64,000 nucleotides of DNA, taken from contig NC_014541.1 in the NCBI RefSeq assembly GCF_000148645.1, positions 2,875,139 to 2,939,138 of the forward strand. Reading direction: 5' to 3'. Both the position numbers and the translations under genes were made by a program. Shown here one piece after another: positions 29,121 to 63,843 of the stretch (position 1 is its first letter; each line of letters begins with the position of its first letter). Source of the DNA: Ferrimonas balearica DSM 9799. Its GTDB lineage: Bacteria > Pseudomonadota > Gammaproteobacteria > Enterobacterales > Shewanellaceae. The notes below the pieces were generated by a model. That model was given only the letters and a program-made list of their open reading frames with translations, had not been told where the DNA came from and did not search any database.

Positions 29121-29197
29121 TGGGGTGGCTGACGGGACTTGAACCCGCGACAACCGGAATCACAATCCGGGACTCTACCAACTGAGCTACAGCCACC
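29121..29197 (-). tRNA. tRNA-His (GTG)
   Basis: 77 bases with encoded CCA. The acceptor starts GGTGGCT with the extra 5' G opposite C73 that marks tRNA-His. D-arm AGCTCAGTTGGTAGAG, anticodon loop ATTGTGATT (GTG), T-arm GGGTTCAAGTCC. It is the last gene of the Pro-Arg-His cluster. Confidence 0.97.
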
Positions 29198-29209
29198 ACT
29201 GTTTTTGCA

Positions 29210-29286
29210 TGGCACGCCCGGCAGGACTCGAACCTGCGGCCAGCTGCTTAGAAGGCAGCTGCTCTATCCAGCTGAGCTACGGGCGC
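29210..29286 (-). tRNA. tRNA-Arg (TCT)
   Basis: 77 bases with encoded CCA. Acceptor GCGCCCG/CGGGCGT, D-arm AGCTCAGCTGGATAGAGC, anticodon arm CTGCC-TTCTAA-GCAG reading TCT, T-arm CAGGTTCGAGTCCTG. It decodes AGA/AGG. 12 bases separate it from tRNA-His. Confidence 0.96.
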
Positions 29287-29319
29287 AGAAACAGGGTTTA
29301 CCTTGCGTACCTTAAAAAG

Positions 29320-29396
<77 letters not shown>

Positions 29397-54473: not shown

Positions 54474-54667
54474 GAATGCGTTCAAAGTGACATCTCAGTC
54501 CCTATCTTATCCCGCCGCTTTCTCAGGAAAAAAGCCCTGATTGACTAGTCTTTAGTCGTTAGTGATCGAGGTAACATTGCACCCGTCGGCGACAACGCGC
54601 AAACTGGATCTTCTTTCCGAAGGCAGCAGGAGCCAGCCGACCCCGGCGGGTGTTCCAGGATAAGGAT

Positions 54668-57454
54668 ATGACCGACAAGCTAATAATCAGTCCCAACGAC
54701 CCCCGGCACTACCGCTTAGTGGTGCTGGAAAATGGCTTGCGTGTCACCCTGGTGCACGACCCCGAAGCCAGTAAAGGGGCTGCCGCCATGGCGGTGCGTG
54801 CCGGCCATTTTGATGACCCTGCCGACCGCGAAGGCATGGCGCACTTCCTTGAGCATATGCTGTTTTTGGGAACACGCGACTATCCCAAAGCGGGGGAGTA
54901 CCAGCAGTTCATCAGCGAACATGGTGGCAACCATAACGCCTGGACCGGCCCGGAGTTCACCAGCTACTACTTCGATGTGGAGCCCGCAGCCCTGGAATCG
55001 GCGCTGCACCGCTTCAGCCAGTTCTTCACGGCCCCGCTGTTTGATGCGGCCCTGGTCGAGAAAGAGCGCCAGTCGGTGGATTCCGAGTACCGCATGAAGC
55101 TGCAGGACGACATGCGCCGCTTCTACCAGGTGCACAAGGAAACGGTGAATCCGGCCCACCCCTTCTCCAAGTTCTCCGTCGGCAACCAGCAGACTCTGGC
55201 GGACCGCCCGGACCGTCCTGTACGGGAAGAGCTACTGGCGTTCCATCGCCAGCACTACTCCGCCAACCTGATGACCCTGGTGGTGGTCAGCCCGCTGTCC
55301 CTGGATCAGGCCGAAGCCATGGTTCAGGCTCATTTCTGTGCCATCGCCAACCTGAAGCTGACCAAATCCCTGCCGGACGTGCCGCTGTACCGCGACGAGG
55401 ACCGCAACATCGAGATACGGATGCTGCCGAACAAGCGACAGCGCCAGATGACCCTGACCTTCCCGCTGCCCGCGCTCGACCCCTGGTACCGGCATAAGCC
55501 ACTGACCTACCTCTCCTACCTGCTCGGCTATGAAGGGCCCGGAAGCCTGCTGTCGGTGCTGAAGTATGAAGGCCTGGTCAGCCAGCTCAGTGCCGGAGGC
55601 GGCATCAATGGCTACAACTTCAAGGATTACAACGTCAGCTATCAGCTGACCGAAAAAGGACTGGCTGCCCCGGACCGCATCCTGGCCATGACCTTCCAGT
55701 ATCTGCAGATGATCCGGGAAGGCGGCGTAGAGGATTGGCGCTATCAGGAGCGGCAGCAACTGCTCGAGCGCGCCTTCCGGTTTCAGGAGCCCAGCAAACC
55801 TCTGGACCTGGCCAGCCACCTCGCCATCAACATGCACCATTACGACGATGAAGACGTGGCGTATGGCGATTACCGCATGGATGGCCTGGACCACGATACC
55901 GTCAACTACATTCTCGCCAGCTTCACCCCGGATGGGGTCCGCCTGACCCTGATCGCGCCGGACCTCGACACCGACCAGCGCGCCAAGTGGTATGACACCC
56001 CATACGCCTGCCTGCCCATCAGCCAGGCGCGCCGGGCTGGCTGGCTCAGCGGCGAGCGCCACCCCAAACTGGCACTGCCAGACCCCAACCCCTATCTGGT
56101 TGGGCTGCTGGAACCCCGTGAGGAAGCCAGTCCCGGCCCCCATCCGGTGCTGCTGCCGGAGCTGTCACGGCTGTCACTCTGGTTCAAGAAAGACCAGGAC
56201 TTCCATGTCCCCAAGGCACACCTTTTCCTGGCACTGGACAGTGAGAGCAGTCACCATGATGCCCGCACCGCTGCCCTCACCCGGCTCTATATCGCCATGC
56301 TGATGGACTCGCTGGCAGAGCCCACCTATCAGGCGGAAGTGGCCGGACTCAGTTACAACATCTATCCCCATCAGGGCGGTCTGACCCTGCATCTCAGCGG
56401 CTTTACCGGTGGCCAGGAGAAGCTGCTTGATCTGTTGCTGCGCAAAGCCCGCCAACGGGACTTCGCGCCCCAGCGCTTTAACGAGTTGAAAGCCCAGTTG
56501 CTGCGCAACTGGAATGGCATCCGCACCGCGCGGCCCATCTCCCGTCTGTTCAATGCCCTGACCGCCACCCTGCAACGCCGCAGTCATGAACCCCTGAATA
56601 TGGCCGCCGCACTGGAGAACTGCTCCCTCGAGCAGCTGCATCACCACATCGATACCCTGTACCAGAGCGTGCACGTGGAGGGATTGATCTACGGGGACTG
56701 GCTGCAGGCTGAAGCGGAAGGGTTGAGCCAGCGCCTGAATCACACCCTGTCCCAGGTGTCCAAGCCGGGCCCGGAGGTGCAGCGCCAGCTGATCAGCATC
56801 CAGGGCCGCGGCACCATCCTGCGCGAGATCAGCCATGACCATCAGGACAGCGCCATCATCGTTTACTACCAGTCGCGGCAAAGCGATCTGGATAAGATGG
56901 CCCTGTTCTGCCTGCTCAACCACAGTATGACCAGCAGCTTCTTTAACGAGCTGCGCACCAAGCAACAGCTGGGTTATATGGTGGGCACCAGCTATGTACC
57001 GATGAACCGCTGTCCGGGCATCATATTCTATGTCCAGAGTCCGGTGGCCGGCCCGTTGCAGCTGATGGAGTCCATCGACCAGTTTATTGCCGACTACAGC
57101 TACGCCCTGATGCAGATCTCCGCCAGCCAGTGGCAAGCCACCAAAGACGCGCTCTGCAACCAGATCCTGGAGCAGGACAATAACCTCAAGTCCAAGGCCC
57201 AGCGCCTGTGGGTCAGCATCGGCAACAAGGACACCGACTTTGACCATCGCGAAAAGATCGCCGAGGCGATTCAGAAGCTGGAGCGGGCTGACCTTATCCG
57301 CTACATCATGCAGCAGATGCGGCGCAGCAATCCGGATCGCCTGGTGCTCTACTCCATCGGAGGCTCCCACAGCGAACACGAGCCCCTCTCCGGCGAACGC
57401 CAGATCACCGACCTGAGCTACTTTAAGGGCCAGGCCGACCTGATTGATTTCTAG
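54668..57454 (+). CDS. M16 family zinc protease (pitrilysin/insulinase type)
   Basis: 928 residues, the pitrilysin layout of two M16 halves. The inverted zinc site HFLEHMLFLGT (HxxEH, about 68-72) with the downstream Glu in LVEKERQSVDSEYRMKLQDD is intact; GGNHNAWTGPEFTSYYFDV is typical. The second half is inactive, as usual (FFNELRTKQQLGYMVGTSY). No signal peptide is visible, so it may be cytoplasmic, unlike E. coli protease III. AGGATAAGGA precedes the ATG at 54668. It breaks down peptides; specific substrates unknown. Confidence 0.9.
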   Translation: MTDKLIISPNDPRHYRLVVLENGLRVTLVHDPEASKGAAAMAVRAGHFDDPADREGMAHFLEHMLFLGTRDYPKAGEYQQFISEHGGNHNAWTGPEFTSYYFDVEPAALESALHRFSQFFTAPLFDAALVEKERQSVDSEYRMKLQDDMRRFYQVHKETVNPAHPFSKFSVGNQQTLADRPDRPVREELLAFHRQHYSANLMTLVVVSPLSLDQAEAMVQAHFCAIANLKLTKSLPDVPLYRDEDRNIEIRMLPNKRQRQMTLTFPLPALDPWYRHKPLTYLSYLLGYEGPGSLLSVLKYEGLVSQLSAGGGINGYNFKDYNVSYQLTEKGLAAPDRILAMTFQYLQMIREGGVEDWRYQERQQLLERAFRFQEPSKPLDLASHLAINMHHYDDEDVAYGDYRMDGLDHDTVNYILASFTPDGVRLTLIAPDLDTDQRAKWYDTPYACLPISQARRAGWLSGERHPKLALPDPNPYLVGLLEPREEASPGPHPVLLPELSRLSLWFKKDQDFHVPKAHLFLALDSESSHHDARTAALTRLYIAMLMDSLAEPTYQAEVAGLSYNIYPHQGGLTLHLSGFTGGQEKLLDLLLRKARQRDFAPQRFNELKAQLLRNWNGIRTARPISRLFNALTATLQRRSHEPLNMAAALENCSLEQLHHHIDTLYQSVHVEGLIYGDWLQAEAEGLSQRLNHTLSQVSKPGPEVQRQLISIQGRGTILREISHDHQDSAIIVYYQSRQSDLDKMALFCLLNHSMTSSFFNELRTKQQLGYMVGTSYVPMNRCPGIIFYVQSPVAGPLQLMESIDQFIADYSYALMQISASQWQATKDALCNQILEQDNNLKSKAQRLWVSIGNKDTDFDHREKIAEAIQKLERADLIRYIMQQMRRSNPDRLVLYSIGGSHSEHEPLSGERQITDLSYFKGQADLIDF

Positions 57455-57641: not shown

Positions 57642-60600
57642 ATGAAGCCATGGATTGCGCTGCTTCTTCTCTGTATCTGCCTTACAGCGGGCGCCTCTGA
57701 GCGACAGCTCACCCCTACCTACAACCTCAGTTACTACGGGCTGGAGCACAACCTCTCCGAAAGCTCCGTCACCAGCATTGTGCAGGACCCGACGGGCTTT
57801 ATCTGGGCTGGCACCATCAACGGCCTCAATCGCCTTGATGGAGACCGGTTTCGACAGTACAACTCTGCCAATGTAGACAGTCATGGGTTGGCCAATTCCA
57901 CCATCCGTGACCTGCAGATCGATGAGCAGGGTCACATGTGGGTGCTTACCCGACAAAACATCTACCGCTACCACTTTGCCGCCGATCGCTTTGAAGTCCT
58001 TGAACTGCCCTCAGACTCGAGTTACTGGAGTTTACGGGTTCGCCGGGACACCTTATTTATCGGTACCGAGTCCAGCATTATTGAATACAACGTCCGGACC
58101 CGAACCTACAAAGAGTATCGGTTGCTGCTTGGCAGCAATAATGGGATACGGCACGTCGAAATAACGGGTGAGCACACCTTGTTGGTCTCCGAGTTCAAAG
58201 GCCAAACTTACGAACTCGATATCCAGTCCGGTCAGTTTTCAGAAGTTGAAGTTCCGGGCCAGCTTAACGCCATCATCGACTATAACGGCGTGAATTACGC
58301 CGCTACCGATGTCGGCCTTTTCAAAATCGGCGCCGATCATGTCAGCCAACAGCAATGGTTTACCGGAAACGTTATCCACATTGCCAAAAACCGTTCTGAG
58401 AATACGCTGTACTTTATCAGTGACAAATCTCTCTACACGCTGAAAGAGTCAGAGAGCGGCGAGGTACAGGTAAACAAAGCGTTTGATTTCGACGCTACGG
58501 CACAATCCCTCTATATCGATACTGACGATAACCTCTGGGTAGGACTGGTGGGATTGGGATTAGCCAAAGTCAACTCGCCGGAGTCGGCACTGACCCATTA
58601 CCAGAACATTTGTGACGCCCCTGGCTGCAATCAAATCTGGAGTCTGGAAACCCACAACAACAAAGTGTGGCTGGCCAATGAAACGAACCAGTTAGTGGCG
58701 TTTTCAGCGGATCTCTCCATTGCCCAACAGCTCGACATCGGCATCAATGGTGCCAAGTCCCTGCACCGCCATCTGGACAAGCTTTATGTCACTGGCGAGA
58801 ACGGGTTAAGCATTGTCGATGCGTCCGATAGCGCGACTCACCTCGAGTACCGCAACACCATCTTCACCTCCATGGCCTCTGCCGGTTCTGAGCTTTATAT
58901 CGGCACCTTTTCAAAAGGGATTTTGCGCCTCGAGCCTGACCTGTCACTCGACGATGAGCGTCTGTCCCCCCAGCTGACATCTACGGTGTTAACGCTCACC
59001 ATCGATGGCGACCGTATGCTCATCGGCAGCCAGCGCGGGGTTCATATCTACCAGTTCGAGCCCGACTTAAATCTGTGGGTTCAGCGGGCGAACCTTCTCA
59101 AGGACAAAATCATTACCGCCATCGACGTGTTGAGTCATGGTTTGCTGGTGGGTACGGTCGGTGAAGGCTTCTTCCTTATCGATGAGAACAACAAACCCTC
59201 GAAGGTGCGTTTTAACCTGCCGAAAGAGAAAGAGATGCTGGTATACAGCATGTCCAGCAACGGCAACTCGGCCTTCGCTTCCACCAGTTCGGGCATTGTT
59301 GAGATCGACAAAACCTCGCTCAACGTCGTCAACTTCTACGACGAGGCGTACGGTGCCCAGGCTGAGTTTAACGGAATGTCCTCGCTCTCCACCGAACAGT
59401 TTGTCTTCTTTGGCGGCACCGAGGGCTTTAATCGCCTGGAACTGGCTAAACGCCAGATTGATAAGTCCATCAGCCCCCCAAAGTTCACCTCCTTCCGGGT
59501 CTTTAATCAGGAGGTTCAGGTTGGCGATAAGCTGAAGCAAAACATCGTTGCGGCAGAACAGGTCAAACTGAAATACAGCGATTACCCCTTCTCCTTCTAC
59601 TTCACCAGCCTGGAGAGTAACCTGTCGGGGCTGATCACTTATGACTACCGACTGGAAGGATTGAGCGAGAACTGGATCCCGACCGACATCAACCAGCGAT
59701 TCGCCACCTTCACCAACATTCCCCACGGCGAGTACACCCTCGAGGTCAGAGCCTCGATCCCCTTTATCGACGGCTCCGCACAGACCTCCTCGCTAAACGT
59801 CATCATCACGCCCCCCTGGTGGCTGTCCCGCTACGCCAAACTCGCTTATGGTGCGGCCATCCTGGCACTGGTTCTGGTGGTTTACCGGGAGTTCCTGCGT
59901 CGTCAGCGGGTTCAGGCGCGCATCGCCCAAAGCGAAGAGCGGTTGAAGTTGTCGCTATGGGGCAGCGGCGATGAGATGTGGGACTGGGATATGGAGGCGG
60001 GCCGGATCTACCGCTCCAATATCTGGGGGATTCTTGAGTTTCCCAGGGATGGCAAACGCAGCAGCGGGGCTGAGAGCAATATCCACCCGGACGACGTCGA
60101 GCGCGTCAACCAGTTGCTCTCACGCCACTTCAGTGGAGACAGCGACCACTTCGAAGCCACTTACCGGGTAAAGAGCAAACTCGGCGACTGGGTCTGGATC
60201 CTTGACCGAGCCAAGATTGTGGAGCGCGACGACCAGGACCGTCCCACCCGGATGACCGGGACCATCAAGGACATCAGCAGCATTAAAGAGGCCGAGGAGC
60301 GCCTCAACCTGTTTGCCCGGGCTCTGCGCAACATCTCCGAAGGGATGTTCATTCTCGATGACGACATGCGTTATCTGGAGGTCAACGAAGCCTGCCTTGA
60401 GATCACCGGATTCGAGAAGGAGCATTTCGTCAACGAGACACTCAAGTTCGATCGCTATCCGCAGGCCTATACCGATGACATCATCCGCATCGTGCAGCAG
60501 CAGGGGCGCTGGAATGGCGAGTTGGAACTCAGCCGCTCCAACGGTCGCCTGATTCAGATTGAACTGACACTCGACCAGATTAAGGAAAGTGGCACCCACA

Positions 60601-61979
60601 ACCACTTCTACGTTGGGGTATTCAGTGACATTACCCACCGCAAACAAGCGGAGTCGGAGCTGCGCCGACTGACCAACAACGACATCCTCACCGGCCTGCC
60701 CAACCGCAGTTATCTGCAGATCTCTCTGGACAGCCTGGTGCGTCGTCAGGTGCCGCTGTGCCTGCTGATTTTTGACCTGGACAACTTTAAGAAAGTGAAC
60801 GACTCACTGGGCCACGGCGCCGGTGATGCCCTGCTTTGCCACGTCGCCAACCGGGTGCGCAACCACCTGCCGGAACAGGCCTCCCTCTACCGTCTTGGTG
60901 GCGACGAGTTTGCCGTGATCTTCGACGGCGATCAGGCGATCAACTACAGCACCAAACTGGCCCAGGAGATCCTGGCGGCCTTTAGTCAGCCCTTCCAGCT
61001 GGAGCAAGGTGAAGTGGTGGTGAACTCCAGTATCGGCATCGTCACCTTCCCGGACGACGATGTCGACCGTCAGGCTCTGTTGCGTAAAGCCGACCTGGCG
61101 ATGTACCACGCCAAGGGCCAGGGCGGTCAGTGCTACCAGTTCTTTAACGAATCCCTGAACCAGGCCGCCATGGAGCGCCTCGATACCGAAAACCTGATCC
61201 GTCAGGCGCTCAAAGACAACCACTTTGAGGTGTATTACCAACCCAAAGTCGACCTGCCCACCAAGCAGATCAAAGGGATGGAAGCCCTGGTTCGTCTTAA
61301 CCACCCCACCCGGGGCCTGATCAGCCCGGGCGAATTCATTCCGTTGGCCGAAGAGACCGGGCTGATCGTGGAGATCGGCGAACACGTCCTGAAGCAAGCC
61401 TGTTTTGCCGCCGAGAAGTGGCGCCAGATGGGCCTGCTGAAAGGGCGGGTTGCGGTCAACCTGTCGTCCCAGCAGTTTATCCTGCCGGACCTGTGTGAGC
61501 GCATTGAGCGCATCCTCAAGCTGACCCGGCTGCCTGCAGACTGGCTGGAGCTGGAGATCACCGAAGGCACCGTGATTCAGCAGCCCGAGCAAGCCATCGC
61601 CACCATGCGTACCCTCAACCAACTGGGTATCCACCTGGCGCTGGACGATTTCGGCACCGGCTACTCCTCGCTCTCGTACCTTAAGCGTTTCCCCATCAAC
61701 ACCCTGAAGATCGACAAGTCCTTTGTTGACGATATCGCCATTACGGCAAAAGACCGAATGATGGCAGCCTCCATTATTACCATTGCGCGCAATATGGAAT
61801 TGTCAGTCGTGGCAGAGGGGGTTGAGGAGAAAGCGCAGCTTAGTGTGCTTGAAGAGTTACGCTGCGATATGGTCCAGGGATATCTGTTCAGCCGTCCTAT
61901 TCCAGAAATGGAATTCGAGTCCCTGATGTTCTCTCAATCCAAAAGACCCATTTATTTGAGTCAAGAATCCGTCACTTAA
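57642..61979 (+). CDS. Membrane sensor with periplasmic propeller, PAS, GGDEF and EAL domains
   Basis: 1445 residues. Signal peptide (MKPWIALLLLCICLTAGASE); two beta-propeller-type repeat regions (about 30-630; blades such as SSVTSIVQDPTGFIWAGTINGLNRLDGDRF); a Y_Y_Y domain (about 645-720, TYDYRLEGLSENW); one membrane helix (about 733-750); PAS domains at about 765-880 and 885-1000; GGDEF with LGGDEFAVIF intact at about 1085; EAL with EALVR (about 1214), NLSSQQF, LEITEG, DDFGTG, LKIDKSF and VAEGVE all present. The RxxD inhibitory site before GGDEF is missing (PEQA). It should make and/or break c-di-GMP in response to a periplasmic signal. A sigma-54 promoter and the repeat-protein gene follow at once. 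Confidence 0.93.
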   Translation: MKPWIALLLLCICLTAGASERQLTPTYNLSYYGLEHNLSESSVTSIVQDPTGFIWAGTINGLNRLDGDRFRQYNSANVDSHGLANSTIRDLQIDEQGHMWVLTRQNIYRYHFAADRFEVLELPSDSSYWSLRVRRDTLFIGTESSIIEYNVRTRTYKEYRLLLGSNNGIRHVEITGEHTLLVSEFKGQTYELDIQSGQFSEVEVPGQLNAIIDYNGVNYAATDVGLFKIGADHVSQQQWFTGNVIHIAKNRSENTLYFISDKSLYTLKESESGEVQVNKAFDFDATAQSLYIDTDDNLWVGLVGLGLAKVNSPESALTHYQNICDAPGCNQIWSLETHNNKVWLANETNQLVAFSADLSIAQQLDIGINGAKSLHRHLDKLYVTGENGLSIVDASDSATHLEYRNTIFTSMASAGSELYIGTFSKGILRLEPDLSLDDERLSPQLTSTVLTLTIDGDRMLIGSQRGVHIYQFEPDLNLWVQRANLLKDKIITAIDVLSHGLLVGTVGEGFFLIDENNKPSKVRFNLPKEKEMLVYSMSSNGNSAFASTSSGIVEIDKTSLNVVNFYDEAYGAQAEFNGMSSLSTEQFVFFGGTEGFNRLELAKRQIDKSISPPKFTSFRVFNQEVQVGDKLKQNIVAAEQVKLKYSDYPFSFYFTSLESNLSGLITYDYRLEGLSENWIPTDINQRFATFTNIPHGEYTLEVRASIPFIDGSAQTSSLNVIITPPWWLSRYAKLAYGAAILALVLVVYREFLRRQRVQARIAQSEERLKLSLWGSGDEMWDWDMEAGRIYRSNIWGILEFPRDGKRSSGAESNIHPDDVERVNQLLSRHFSGDSDHFEATYRVKSKLGDWVWILDRAKIVERDDQDRPTRMTGTIKDISSIKEAEERLNLFARALRNISEGMFILDDDMRYLEVNEACLEITGFEKEHFVNETLKFDRYPQAYTDDIIRIVQQQGRWNGELELSRSNGRLIQIELTLDQIKESGTHNHFYVGVFSDITHRKQAESELRRLTNNDILTGLPNRSYLQISLDSLVRRQVPLCLLIFDLDNFKKVNDSLGHGAGDALLCHVANRVRNHLPEQASLYRLGGDEFAVIFDGDQAINYSTKLAQEILAAFSQPFQLEQGEVVVNSSIGIVTFPDDDVDRQALLRKADLAMYHAKGQGGQCYQFFNESLNQAAMERLDTENLIRQALKDNHFEVYYQPKVDLPTKQIKGMEALVRLNHPTRGLISPGEFIPLAEETGLIVEIGEHVLKQACFAAEKWRQMGLLKGRVAVNLSSQQFILPDLCERIERILKLTRLPADWLELEITEGTVIQQPEQAIATMRTLNQLGIHLALDDFGTGYSSLSYLKRFPINTLKIDKSFVDDIAITAKDRMMAASIITIARNMELSVVAEGVEEKAQLSVLEELRCDMVQGYLFSRPIPEMEFESLMFSQSKRPIYLSQESVT

Positions 61980-62047: not shown

Positions 62048-63598
62048 ATGTTTGCTAAAACCACTGTTTCCGCTTTTGTAGCCTCTATCCTCTTTTCTGC
62101 CCAAGCTGCTGCAGGCGTGCCATGGATCGCAAAAGAAAGTCATGACCTCAAAAATATCCCCTGGACTTCAGAGCAGGTAATTAAGCGCGAAACCGACCGA
62201 GGCTCCGACAAAACAAAACAGGCAACCGTTCCCTGGATTAAGCAGGTTGAAGAATTTGCGACAGTTCCCTGGATCAAACAAGTCGAAGAGCTGGCCACCG
62301 TACCGTGGATTAAGCAGACCGAAGAATTAGCTACCGTACCGTGGATTAAGCAGACCGAGGAATTGGCCACCGTACCGTGGATTAAGCAGACCGAGGAATT
62401 GGCCACCGTACCGTGGATTAAACAGACCGAAGAACTGGCCACCGTACCGTGGATTAAACAGACCGAAGAACTGGCCACCGTACCGTGGATTAAGCAGACC
62501 GAACTGGCCACCGTGCCGTGGATTAAGCAGACCGAGCTGGCCACCGTGCCGTGGATTAAGCAGACCGAGCTGGCCACCGTACCGTGGATCAAACAGACCG
62601 AGCTGGCCACCGTACCGTGGATCAAGCAGACCGAGCTGGCCACCGTACCGTGGATCAAGCAGACCGAGCTGGCCACCGTGCCGTGGATTAAGCAGACCGA
62701 ACTGGCCACCGTGCCGTGGATTAAGCAGACCGAAGAGCTGGCCACCGTGCCGTGGATTAAGCAGACCGAGCTGGCCACCGTACCGTGGATTAAGCAGACC
62801 GAGCTGGCCACCGTGCCGTGGATTAAGCAGACCGAACTGGCCACCGTGCCGTGGATCAAGCAGACCGAACTGGCCACCGTACCGTGGATCAAGCAGACCG
62901 AACTGGCCACCGTGCCGTGGATCAAGCAGACCGAACTGGCCACTGTACCGTGGATCAAGCAGACCGAGCTGGCCACCGTGCCGTGGATTAAGCAGACCGA
63001 ACTGGCCACCGTACCGTGGATCAAGCAGACCGAGCTGGCCACCGTGCCGTGGATTAAGCAGACCGAGCTGGCCACCGTACCGTGGATTAAGCAGACCGAA
63101 CTGGCCACCGTACCGTGGATTAAGCAGACCGAACTGGCCACCGTGCCGTGGATCAAGCAGACCGAGCTGGCCACCGTACCGTGGATTAAGCAGACCGAAC
63201 TGGCCACCGTACCGTGGATTAAGCAGACCGAACTGGCCACCGTGCCGTGGATCAAGCAGACCGAGCTGGCCACCGTGCCGTGGATTAAGCAGACCGAACT
63301 GGCCACCGTGCCGTGGATTAAGCAGACCGAGCTGGCCACCGTACCGTGGATTAAGCAGACCGAGCTGGCCACCGTACCGTGGATTAAGCAGACCGAACTG
63401 GCCACCGTACCGTGGATCAAGCAGACCGAACTGGCCACCGTGCCGTGGATTAAGCAGACCGAACTGGCCACCGTGCCGTGGATTAAGCAGACCGAACTGG
63501 CCACCGTACCGTGGATTAAGCAAAGCCAGCAAAAGCCTCAGCCCAAGCCTGAGAGCACCCGCAACATTCCCTGGCTGAAGCCTTCTTCCGTAGCCTAA
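62048..63598 (+). CDS. Secreted PWIKQ tandem-repeat protein, novel
   Basis: 516 residues. A Sec signal peptide (MFAKTTVSAFVASILFSAQAAA, cleavage near residue 22), a 36-residue lead with two degenerate motifs (VPWIAKE, IPWTSEQ), then 38 full tandem units and a last partial one, giving 39 TVPWIKQ motifs. Units 1-7 are 12 residues (TVPWIKQTEELA; the first two carry VEE), units 8-14 are 11 (TVPWIKQTELA), unit 15 is 12, units 16-38 are 11. The tail SQQKPQPKPESTRNIPWLKPSSVA has a final variant. No membrane anchor, sortase signal or known domain is visible. TAGGAG precedes the ATG. I do not recognise the family; a structural, adhesive or matrix role, or a multi-copy peptide precursor, are guesses. 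Confidence 0.85.
   Translation: MFAKTTVSAFVASILFSAQAAAGVPWIAKESHDLKNIPWTSEQVIKRETDRGSDKTKQATVPWIKQVEEFATVPWIKQVEELATVPWIKQTEELATVPWIKQTEELATVPWIKQTEELATVPWIKQTEELATVPWIKQTEELATVPWIKQTELATVPWIKQTELATVPWIKQTELATVPWIKQTELATVPWIKQTELATVPWIKQTELATVPWIKQTELATVPWIKQTEELATVPWIKQTELATVPWIKQTELATVPWIKQTELATVPWIKQTELATVPWIKQTELATVPWIKQTELATVPWIKQTELATVPWIKQTELATVPWIKQTELATVPWIKQTELATVPWIKQTELATVPWIKQTELATVPWIKQTELATVPWIKQTELATVPWIKQTELATVPWIKQTELATVPWIKQTELATVPWIKQTELATVPWIKQTELATVPWIKQTELATVPWIKQTELATVPWIKQTELATVPWIKQTELATVPWIKQSQQKPQPKPESTRNIPWLKPSSVA
62225..63523 (+). repeat. 39-copy in-frame tandem repeat (33/36 bp)
   Basis: Seven 36-bp units (62225-62476), seven 33-bp units (62477-62707), one 36-bp unit (62708-62743), 23 33-bp units (62744-63502), and a partial unit to 63523. 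Apart from the first two units, differences are almost all at third codon positions (GTA/GTG, ATT/ATC, AAG/AAA, GAA/GAG) and silent. The only length change is gain or loss of one Glu codon. Confidence 0.95.
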
Positions 63599-63625: not shown

Positions 63626-63745
63626 ATGACTATGCTGACCAAAATCAAACAAGCTCTGGGTCTTTGTCCTCGCCGCAAGAAAGTGGCACTGCCAAGCGGC
63701 CTGCAGAACCTGGAAGTGATCACCGCAGAACGTTGGTGGCACTAA
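63626..63745 (+). CDS. Small basic peptide (39 residues) after the repeat gene
   Basis: A short ORF starting MTMLTKIKQALGLCPRRKK and ending ITAERWWH, with AGAGG about 8 bases before the ATG. It is 27 bases after the repeat-protein stop and before a hairpin, so it probably shares the sigma-54 transcript. The N-terminal half is basic and amphipathic with one Cys; the end has two Trp and a His. KIKQ echoes the IKQ of the repeats, perhaps by chance. There is no signal peptide, so it should stay in the cytoplasm unless exported another way. No known family; coding status rests on its ribosome-binding site, position and plausible composition. Confidence 0.55.
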   Translation: MTMLTKIKQALGLCPRRKKVALPSGLQNLEVITAERWWH

Positions 63746-63807: not shown

Positions 63808-63843
63808 AACGCGGTCAGCTGTCCCAGCTGGCCGCGTTTTTTT
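63808..63843. terminator. Terminator closing the repeat-protein operon
   Basis: A 14-bp stem AACGCGGTCAGCTG/CAGCTGGCCGCGTT with one G-T pair and a 3-base loop, followed by seven T on the plus strand. It also covers the last codons of the minus-strand gene that ends at 63815. Confidence 0.85.

Follow-up and report, generated by a model that had tools for sequence, protein, structure and literature searches.

The repeat gene and its flanking genes

The window analysed here is a 64,000-nucleotide stretch of Ferrimonas balearica DSM 9799 (contig NC_014541.1). Near its right-hand end the plus strand carries, in order, an M16 (insulinase) peptidase gene (54650..57454), a sensor gene (57642..61979), a gene for a repetitive protein (62048..63598) and a gene for a 39-residue peptide, MTMLTKIKQALGLCPRRKKVALPSGLQNLEVITAERWWH, which ends in RWWH (63626..63745; the WW peptide). 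The 1445-residue sensor was assigned Reg_prop, Y_Y_Y, PAS, GGDEF and EAL regions by Pfam, and its signal-like start and membrane helix were both judged by eye. A consensus scan placed a terminator-like hairpin 3' of the WW gene on the plus strand (63808..63838), one of 6 such sites returned from both strands against 3.2 expected; the same scan found no terminator-like hairpin on the plus strand between the repeat gene and the WW gene.

Translation of the repeat gene gives 516 residues plus a stop. The protein opens with a signal peptide recognized by eye, MFAKTTVSAFVASILFSAQAAA (62048..62113), with the cut inferred before GVPWI, followed by two lead Pro-Trp motifs, GVPWI and NIPWT (62114..62164), an array of TVPWIKQ cores over residues 60-492 (62225..63523) located with TRF and by motif count, and a C-terminal motif, NIPWLKPSSVA (63563..63595), with a final Ala as in relatives. 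The first-pass annotation of this DNA had described 39 copies of TVPWIKQ behind a signal peptide, and an exact count returned 39 in an open reading frame of 516 residues with a signal-like start. Its unit of 11 or 12 residues was also recovered, the spacing between cores being 11 in 30 cases and 12 in 8; the whole units comprise 30 TVPWIKQTELA, 6 TVPWIKQTEELA, 1 TVPWIKQVEEFA and 1 TVPWIKQVEELA. In the DNA of the array TRF reported a 33-base unit in 36.8 copies with 94% matches. Repeats make up 88% of the mature protein if the cut is placed, by eye, after residue 22, in keeping with the earlier figure of more than 80%. The last TVPWIKQ is separated from the C-terminus by 24 residues, and the presence of the lead motifs GVPWI and NIPWT and the tail NIPWLKP bears out the suggestion that the whole protein grew from one motif.

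The 30 identical 11-residue units are written in 10 DNA spellings that differ at 5 bases, each a third codon position, so the array is neither a chance product nor a fresh DNA copy. Across these units pS was 0.206 and pN was 0, and selection therefore holds the peptide in the window copies; the spelling counts and the pN/pS values concern the 11-residue units only, the eight 12-residue units, two of which differ in residues, standing outside them.

The order M16 peptidase, propeller-PAS-GGDEF-EAL sensor, repeat gene and WW-ending peptide of 37-39 residues is nearly always kept in relatives. Among 42 named loci of at least 14 kb, a simple pattern recovered the sensor in 40 and, on its downstream side, a gene resembling fadJ in 39; M16-like ORFs were seen by eye upstream in other loci too. 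In genome G143 (L164, about 4.9-17 kb), some 12.7 kb with several transposase-like ORFs parts the sensor from the repeat gene. The sensor presumably corresponds to SO3084 in S. oneidensis. SO3084 is named in PMC4168976 as one of the genes for whose insertions no explanation was available.

For the WW peptide the median pN/pS was 0.174 over 1868 pairs of similar relatives, a ratio lowered by the restriction to pairs at least 75% identical. Its gene occurs as two tandem copies in several Shewanella (L251, L253, L255, L256, L260, L278 and L279), and some Ferrimonas (L157, L158, L160 and L161) carry a divergent form (..AELDIREVPAGSWWS) that the profile missed; in G002 no WW peptide was recognized 3' of the array.

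Variation of the unit between and within genomes

Loci were examined one per genome, 139 in all, and 125 gave a repeat ORF with an intact end (105 read whole, 11 without a start because of a contig end and 9 with masked bases). Left out of the 125 were arrays masked by N (G005, G008 and G171) or running into a contig end (G009, G065, G107 and G129), stretches holding the WW gene alone (G095 and G141), cases in which the wrong frame was picked (G028, G081 and G146) and arrays with a frame-broken look (G062 and G139). The broken look of these last two (L259 and L261, respectively) may reflect mutation or sequencing error.

The 125 genomes yielded 101 distinct modal units, with 87 among the 105 proteins read whole. 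A main period of 13 residues was found in 113 genomes; periods of 14 and 9 occurred in 4 genomes each, 15 in 3, and 11 in the window alone. Period-13 units of relatives, of which GIPNIKFKPVQTA is an example, follow the pattern G/A-hydrophobic-Pro-x-I/V-K/R-hydrophobic-x3-Q/E-T/V/L-Ala: among 90 distinct 13-mers, position 5 is I/V in 87, position 6 K/R in 89, position 11 Q/E in 81 and position 13 Ala in 89, with the reservation that Pro and the positions following it served as the anchor for defining units, which makes conservation there partly a product of the method. At position 4 the commonest residues include N (34), H (18), G (10), W (8), Y (8) and A (7). Proteins read whole hold 4 to 40 cores, seven of the 105 having 4 to 6; G028 (L252) has one unit, and G081 (L194) has three at wider spacing.

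Divergence within arrays was calculated for the 119 genomes with at least 4 units of the main period and gave a median pS of 0.298, pN of 0.016 and ratio of 0.066. In 118 of these arrays pN was smaller than pS, and the remaining one was without any synonymous difference. Because units are alike within arrays and different between them, and because synonymous divergence is kept, the arrays point to duplication of units together with purifying selection on a short peptide.

These values bear on whether the protein is a structural polymer, that is, a beta-solenoid, polyproline rod, fibre or surface coat. Such a polymer would suit the regular Pro-containing repeats and the high copy number in the window, and the first-pass annotation had proposed a solenoid, a fibre or cation-pi stacking. 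That proposal was weakened by the relatives: Trp occurs in 8 of the 90 distinct 13-mers, periods range from 9 to 15, copies go down to 1, spacings of 11 and 12 are mixed, and no solved relative was found beyond a lysostaphin match in the repetitive stretch. We consider a structural polymer improbable. Since Trp is rare among the distinct 13-mers, it is a habit of Ferrimonas and Paraferrimonas, shared by a few Shewanella. The earlier argument that a Pro in every unit speaks against a coiled coil was supported, both by the Pro of each unit and by the mixed spacing, and the fixed period and fixed structural residue of a hendecad coiled coil or regular solenoid were not seen. The varying period, Trp content and copy number are a better fit to repeated short motifs or peptides than to a regular polymer.

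Protein ends and possible minimal precursors

The final residue is Ala in 123 of the 125 proteins and in 114 of 116 distinct tails, the exceptions being G011 (Ser) and G127 (Val). Ala ends 103 of the 105 proteins read whole, and G028 and G081 likewise end in it. Entropy of the last position was 0.14 bit, against 1.4-3.4 bits at the 19 preceding positions. As controls, Ala was the last residue in 7 of 46 sensors and in 17 of the 273 long open frames found on these stretches, a set that includes many homologous neighbours. Internal units are closed by the same Ala (89 of the 90 distinct 13-mers), and in 90 of 125 proteins the last core stands exactly one unit before the stop. As in a multi-copy precursor, the stop is in phase with the unit and the terminal residue is that of the internal boundary; the family f20, described below, differs.

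A signal-like start was found by a crude rule in 111 of the 114 relatives tried. Inspection by eye of the 25 shortest proteins listed gave at least eight genomes (G017, G023, G063, G075, G076, G082, G096 and G104) in which nothing separates the signal-like segment from the first unit, and the protein of Paraferrimonas G017 (L024) consists of the signal, five GLPWIENQDINTA and a final GLPWIENQETQSA, with little besides. A signal followed by units with an in-phase Ala has the look that would be expected of a precursor cut after Ala.

Two S41 family peptidases are encoded in the genome to which the window belongs, and a candidate cutter therefore exists. Members of the S41 family recognize nonpolar C-termini, and stepwise removal of units from the C-terminal end by such a peptidase is conceivable in principle. 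The unit-closing Ala does not constitute a signal peptidase I site, as Q/E at -3 does not fit the rule for such sites. Inheritance, and not a functional need, could account for the Ala in phase with the unit.

The chief rival of a cut precursor is a flexible chain that stays whole and whose short linear motifs would bind or cluster a partner in the periplasm multivalently, be it the sensor, some envelope protein or a polymer, with copy number tuning avidity. Variation of the spacing within and between species, retention of the core beside varying spacers in f20 and G081 (L194), and the existence of a single-copy member all agree with such a chain. It does not explain why 123 of 125 proteins stop with Ala where a unit closes, nor the near-constancy of the whole unit, beyond the core, inside arrays. 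We regard the uncut chain as unlikely, while giving it real weight. The reading preferred here, a Sec-exported multi-copy precursor with units that, either released or displayed on the chain, act as ligands for the adjacent sensor, is held tentatively, as a serious possibility that falls somewhat short of probable.

Database matches and known systems

No relative of substance was found for the window protein in Pfam, NCBIfam or PDB, and no characterised repeat family was found; placement in such a family, with a known function, was what the first-pass annotation had named as a refutation. The one Pfam match of the window protein, Peptidase_M99_m (E 8e-4), was rejected as lying below the cut-off and having no significant stretch. 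The alignment of relatives took in 60 of the 105 eligible repeat proteins. At E<=0.001 these 60 reached 43 Pfam families, the 25 listed being of unrelated kinds, and 30 NCBIfam families, 25 of them listed; whole-protein scores of these arrays therefore mean little. For arrays of short repeats such as those of L181 and L197, the HMMER E-values computed over the whole protein seem badly inflated.

An ice-binding (antifreeze) repeat was considered from the Pfam name of the match of some members, AFP_2 (PF18815, bacterial antifreeze protein repeat), whose whole-protein score was about 78 bits against a cut-off of 25 in members viewed singly. The match, however, is present in 6 of the 60 members at E<=0.001 and absent from the window protein, neither of the two proteins viewed singly (G090 = L071/L181; G026 = L197) has a stretch that passes by itself, and it is one family name among the many unrelated ones reached by the same 60 proteins. 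AFP_2 membership was rejected as a likely artefact of summed weak repeats, and an antifreeze role is very improbable indeed. A literature search that covered few subscription papers returned no paper naming PF18815.

A relation to lysostaphin was rejected because the match (phmmer E 2.8e-14 from a Shewanella member; profile E 3e-12) is to the repetitive stretch alone. The lysostaphin propeptide (Lysostaphin_N PF25533, PDB 6rk4) is alike in being a set of tandem repeats in an exported protein, and its repeat length is 13 residues, but only 4 of the 60 members match Lysostaphin_N; membership was rejected since no peptidase domain comes after the repeats and a stop follows the array in relatives. 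A phage origin was also rejected, the PHROG matches of two repeat proteins being without a significant stretch. No relative of the WW peptide was found in viral contigs.

Several known systems offer points of comparison. Yeast alpha-factor and neuropeptide precursors likewise have a signal peptide and tandem, near-identical short units that are the same within a species and different between species, whereas the repeat family is bacterial, has an Ala boundary and a putative processing step, and no homology is claimed. Gram-positive peptide pheromone systems pair a short, species-specific peptide with an adjacent sensor gene, the arrangement suggested for the present locus; they differ from this Gram-negative case, in which a Sec-exported polyprotein has about 40 copies at the most and the proposed receptor has a GGDEF-EAL output. 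The hybrid two-component sensors of Bacteroides have the same Reg_prop and Y_Y_Y sensor half, while the output of the present sensor is PAS-GGDEF-EAL and its proposed ligand would be a peptide encoded next door.

Distribution of the locus

A repeat profile built from 6 sequences matched 120 of the 152 genomes of the family, which we take to be Shewanellaceae in the GTDB sense, at E<=0.001 (32 without a match); a WW profile built from 7 sequences matched 133 of the 152 at E<=0.1 (19 without a match), and the periplasmic half of the sensor matched 112 of the 152 at E<=1e-40. The 62 contigs found with the WW peptide belong to Shewanella, Parashewanella, Paraferrimonas and Ferrimonas; the two genomes of the fifth genus of the family, g3, gave no WW profile match. 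A Ferrimonas-type locus was found in NZ_JAHVJZ010000003.1 (L149), which falls in the genus of the window, is titled Marinobacter nauticus strain DP3N21-5 and looks misnamed.

Within the genus of the window the repeat gene was found in 12 of 14 genomes. G002, G005, G008, G009, G012 and G013 were missed by the search and the repeat gene was then found behind the sensor, in G009 as the start of the gene alone at a contig end. The repeat gene, WW peptide and sensor were all undetected in G010. No repeat gene or WW gene was seen behind the sensor in G001 (L163, 4950-5396), where the sensor frame is intact and fadJ still adjoins; this locus is perhaps a natural deletion.

Of 394 genomes sampled across the order, 39 gave a match to the WW peptide, and these belong to families f1, f15 and f20. 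The order M16-like, sensor-like, repeat and WW is kept in f20 (4 of 7 genomes; the first two genes by eye), with the unit cores RIPVRF, RVIIRY, HIPIRF and RIQIRI and mostly acidic spacers; all four f20 proteins end on a core and not in Ala, and the Ala end rule was seen in f1 only of the three families. The five f15 genomes (5 of 5) have M16-like, sensor-like and WW genes and, between the latter two, a gap of about 200 bases without a repeat ORF. With the repeat gene sought behind the sensor, the receptor candidate thus occurs without the ligand candidate in G001 and the five f15 genomes, and because these have the sensor alone or with the WW gene, the sensor can do without the repeat gene. 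The sensor and WW peptide may be the older pair, the repeat gene being an addition or a loss.

The distribution also bears on the idea that the gene is a many-copy source of an exported peptide with antimicrobial or competitive action, for which arms races would make the units species-specific and the WW peptide or sensor would serve as control or immunity. Species-specific units with K/R and a hydrophobic core, and an export-type precursor, would be in line with it; the gene, however, is widespread at a constant locus rather than patchy, and no exporter or immunity gene was recognized by eye among the neighbouring ORFs. An antimicrobial function is considered distinctly improbable.

Co-variation of units and sensor

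A precursor whose units act on the sensor was assessed by comparing unit distances with distances of the neighbouring proteins. Of 52 loci, six rows (duplicates and one wrong-frame unit) were removed to leave 46, of which 37 have an M16 fragment. Over the 37 loci mean identity was 0.32 for the periplasmic half of the sensor, 0.72 for the cytoplasmic half and 0.67 for the M16 fragment. Unit distance was correlated with the periplasmic half, given the cytoplasmic half and M16, at a partial r of 0.255 (37 loci; permutation p 0.001, the least possible with 1000 shuffles), with the cytoplasmic half, given the periplasmic half, at 0.173 (37 loci; p 0.019), and with M16, both sensor halves removed, at -0.136 (37 loci). 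Without the M16 control, the 46 loci gave 0.25 for the periplasmic half (p 0.0005) against 0.10 for the cytoplasmic half (p 0.089), and the 34 Shewanella-type loci gave 0.23 (p 0.0005) against 0.11 (p 0.037). The co-variation modestly supports what may be a ligand-receptor relation, and shared history may be partly left in it.

Proposed function

The export signal, judged by eye and by the crude rule, occurs together with tandem units selected for the same peptide, as in a precursor, and the candidate ligand gene adjoins the candidate receptor gene, as in a peptide-sensor pair, one locus being parted by transposase-like ORFs. The start typical of exported proteins, the build of the units, the selection acting on them, the Ala end in phase with the unit and the conserved locus are read from the genomes themselves; cleavage, passage beyond the outer membrane, binding to the sensor, a signalling role and any role of the WW peptide are inferred. 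In the proposed mechanism the product of the repeat gene would be a Sec-exported precursor of a short, species-specific peptide, mostly of 13 residues and in the window the 11-mer TVPWIKQTELA. Its many copies would raise the dose, or the local valency if the chain is uncut, and duplication of units together with purifying selection would keep them alike. A periplasmic peptidase would cut after the Ala closing each unit; the units, free or chained, would bind the sensor encoded just upstream at its periplasmic propeller half, which evolves fast, and binding would tune the cyclic-di-GMP output of its GGDEF and EAL regions.

An extension of this mechanism, speculative and rather unlikely as it stands, is that Shewanellaceae and their neighbours possess a Gram-negative peptide hormone system, in which a Sec-exported and then cut polyprotein of up to about 40 copies would release species-specific peptides of 9 to 15 residues to a propeller-GGDEF-EAL receptor that sets cyclic-di-GMP, for kin recognition or for reading the cell's own envelope, with the WW peptide as a third component.

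The repeat proteins are a real, unnamed and widespread exported family with a species-specific peptide under strong selection. A literature search covering titles, the openings of abstracts and few subscription papers returned no description of the family, and a search for the unit sequences returned no relevant paper. If the units are released and read, the locus would represent peptide signalling in Gram-negative bacteria, a species code readable from the genome and a direct link to cyclic-di-GMP, in a group with common laboratory bacteria in which genes are easily knocked out. Even otherwise, the exported proteins form a widespread and unnamed family that changes fast, in bacteria that have been well studied. 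The 101 modal units in 125 genomes are a natural experiment for concerted evolution under selection.

An Rfam search of the window returned three tRNAs and nothing else; tRNA-His, tRNA-Arg and tRNA-Pro form a cluster at 29121-29396 on the minus strand.
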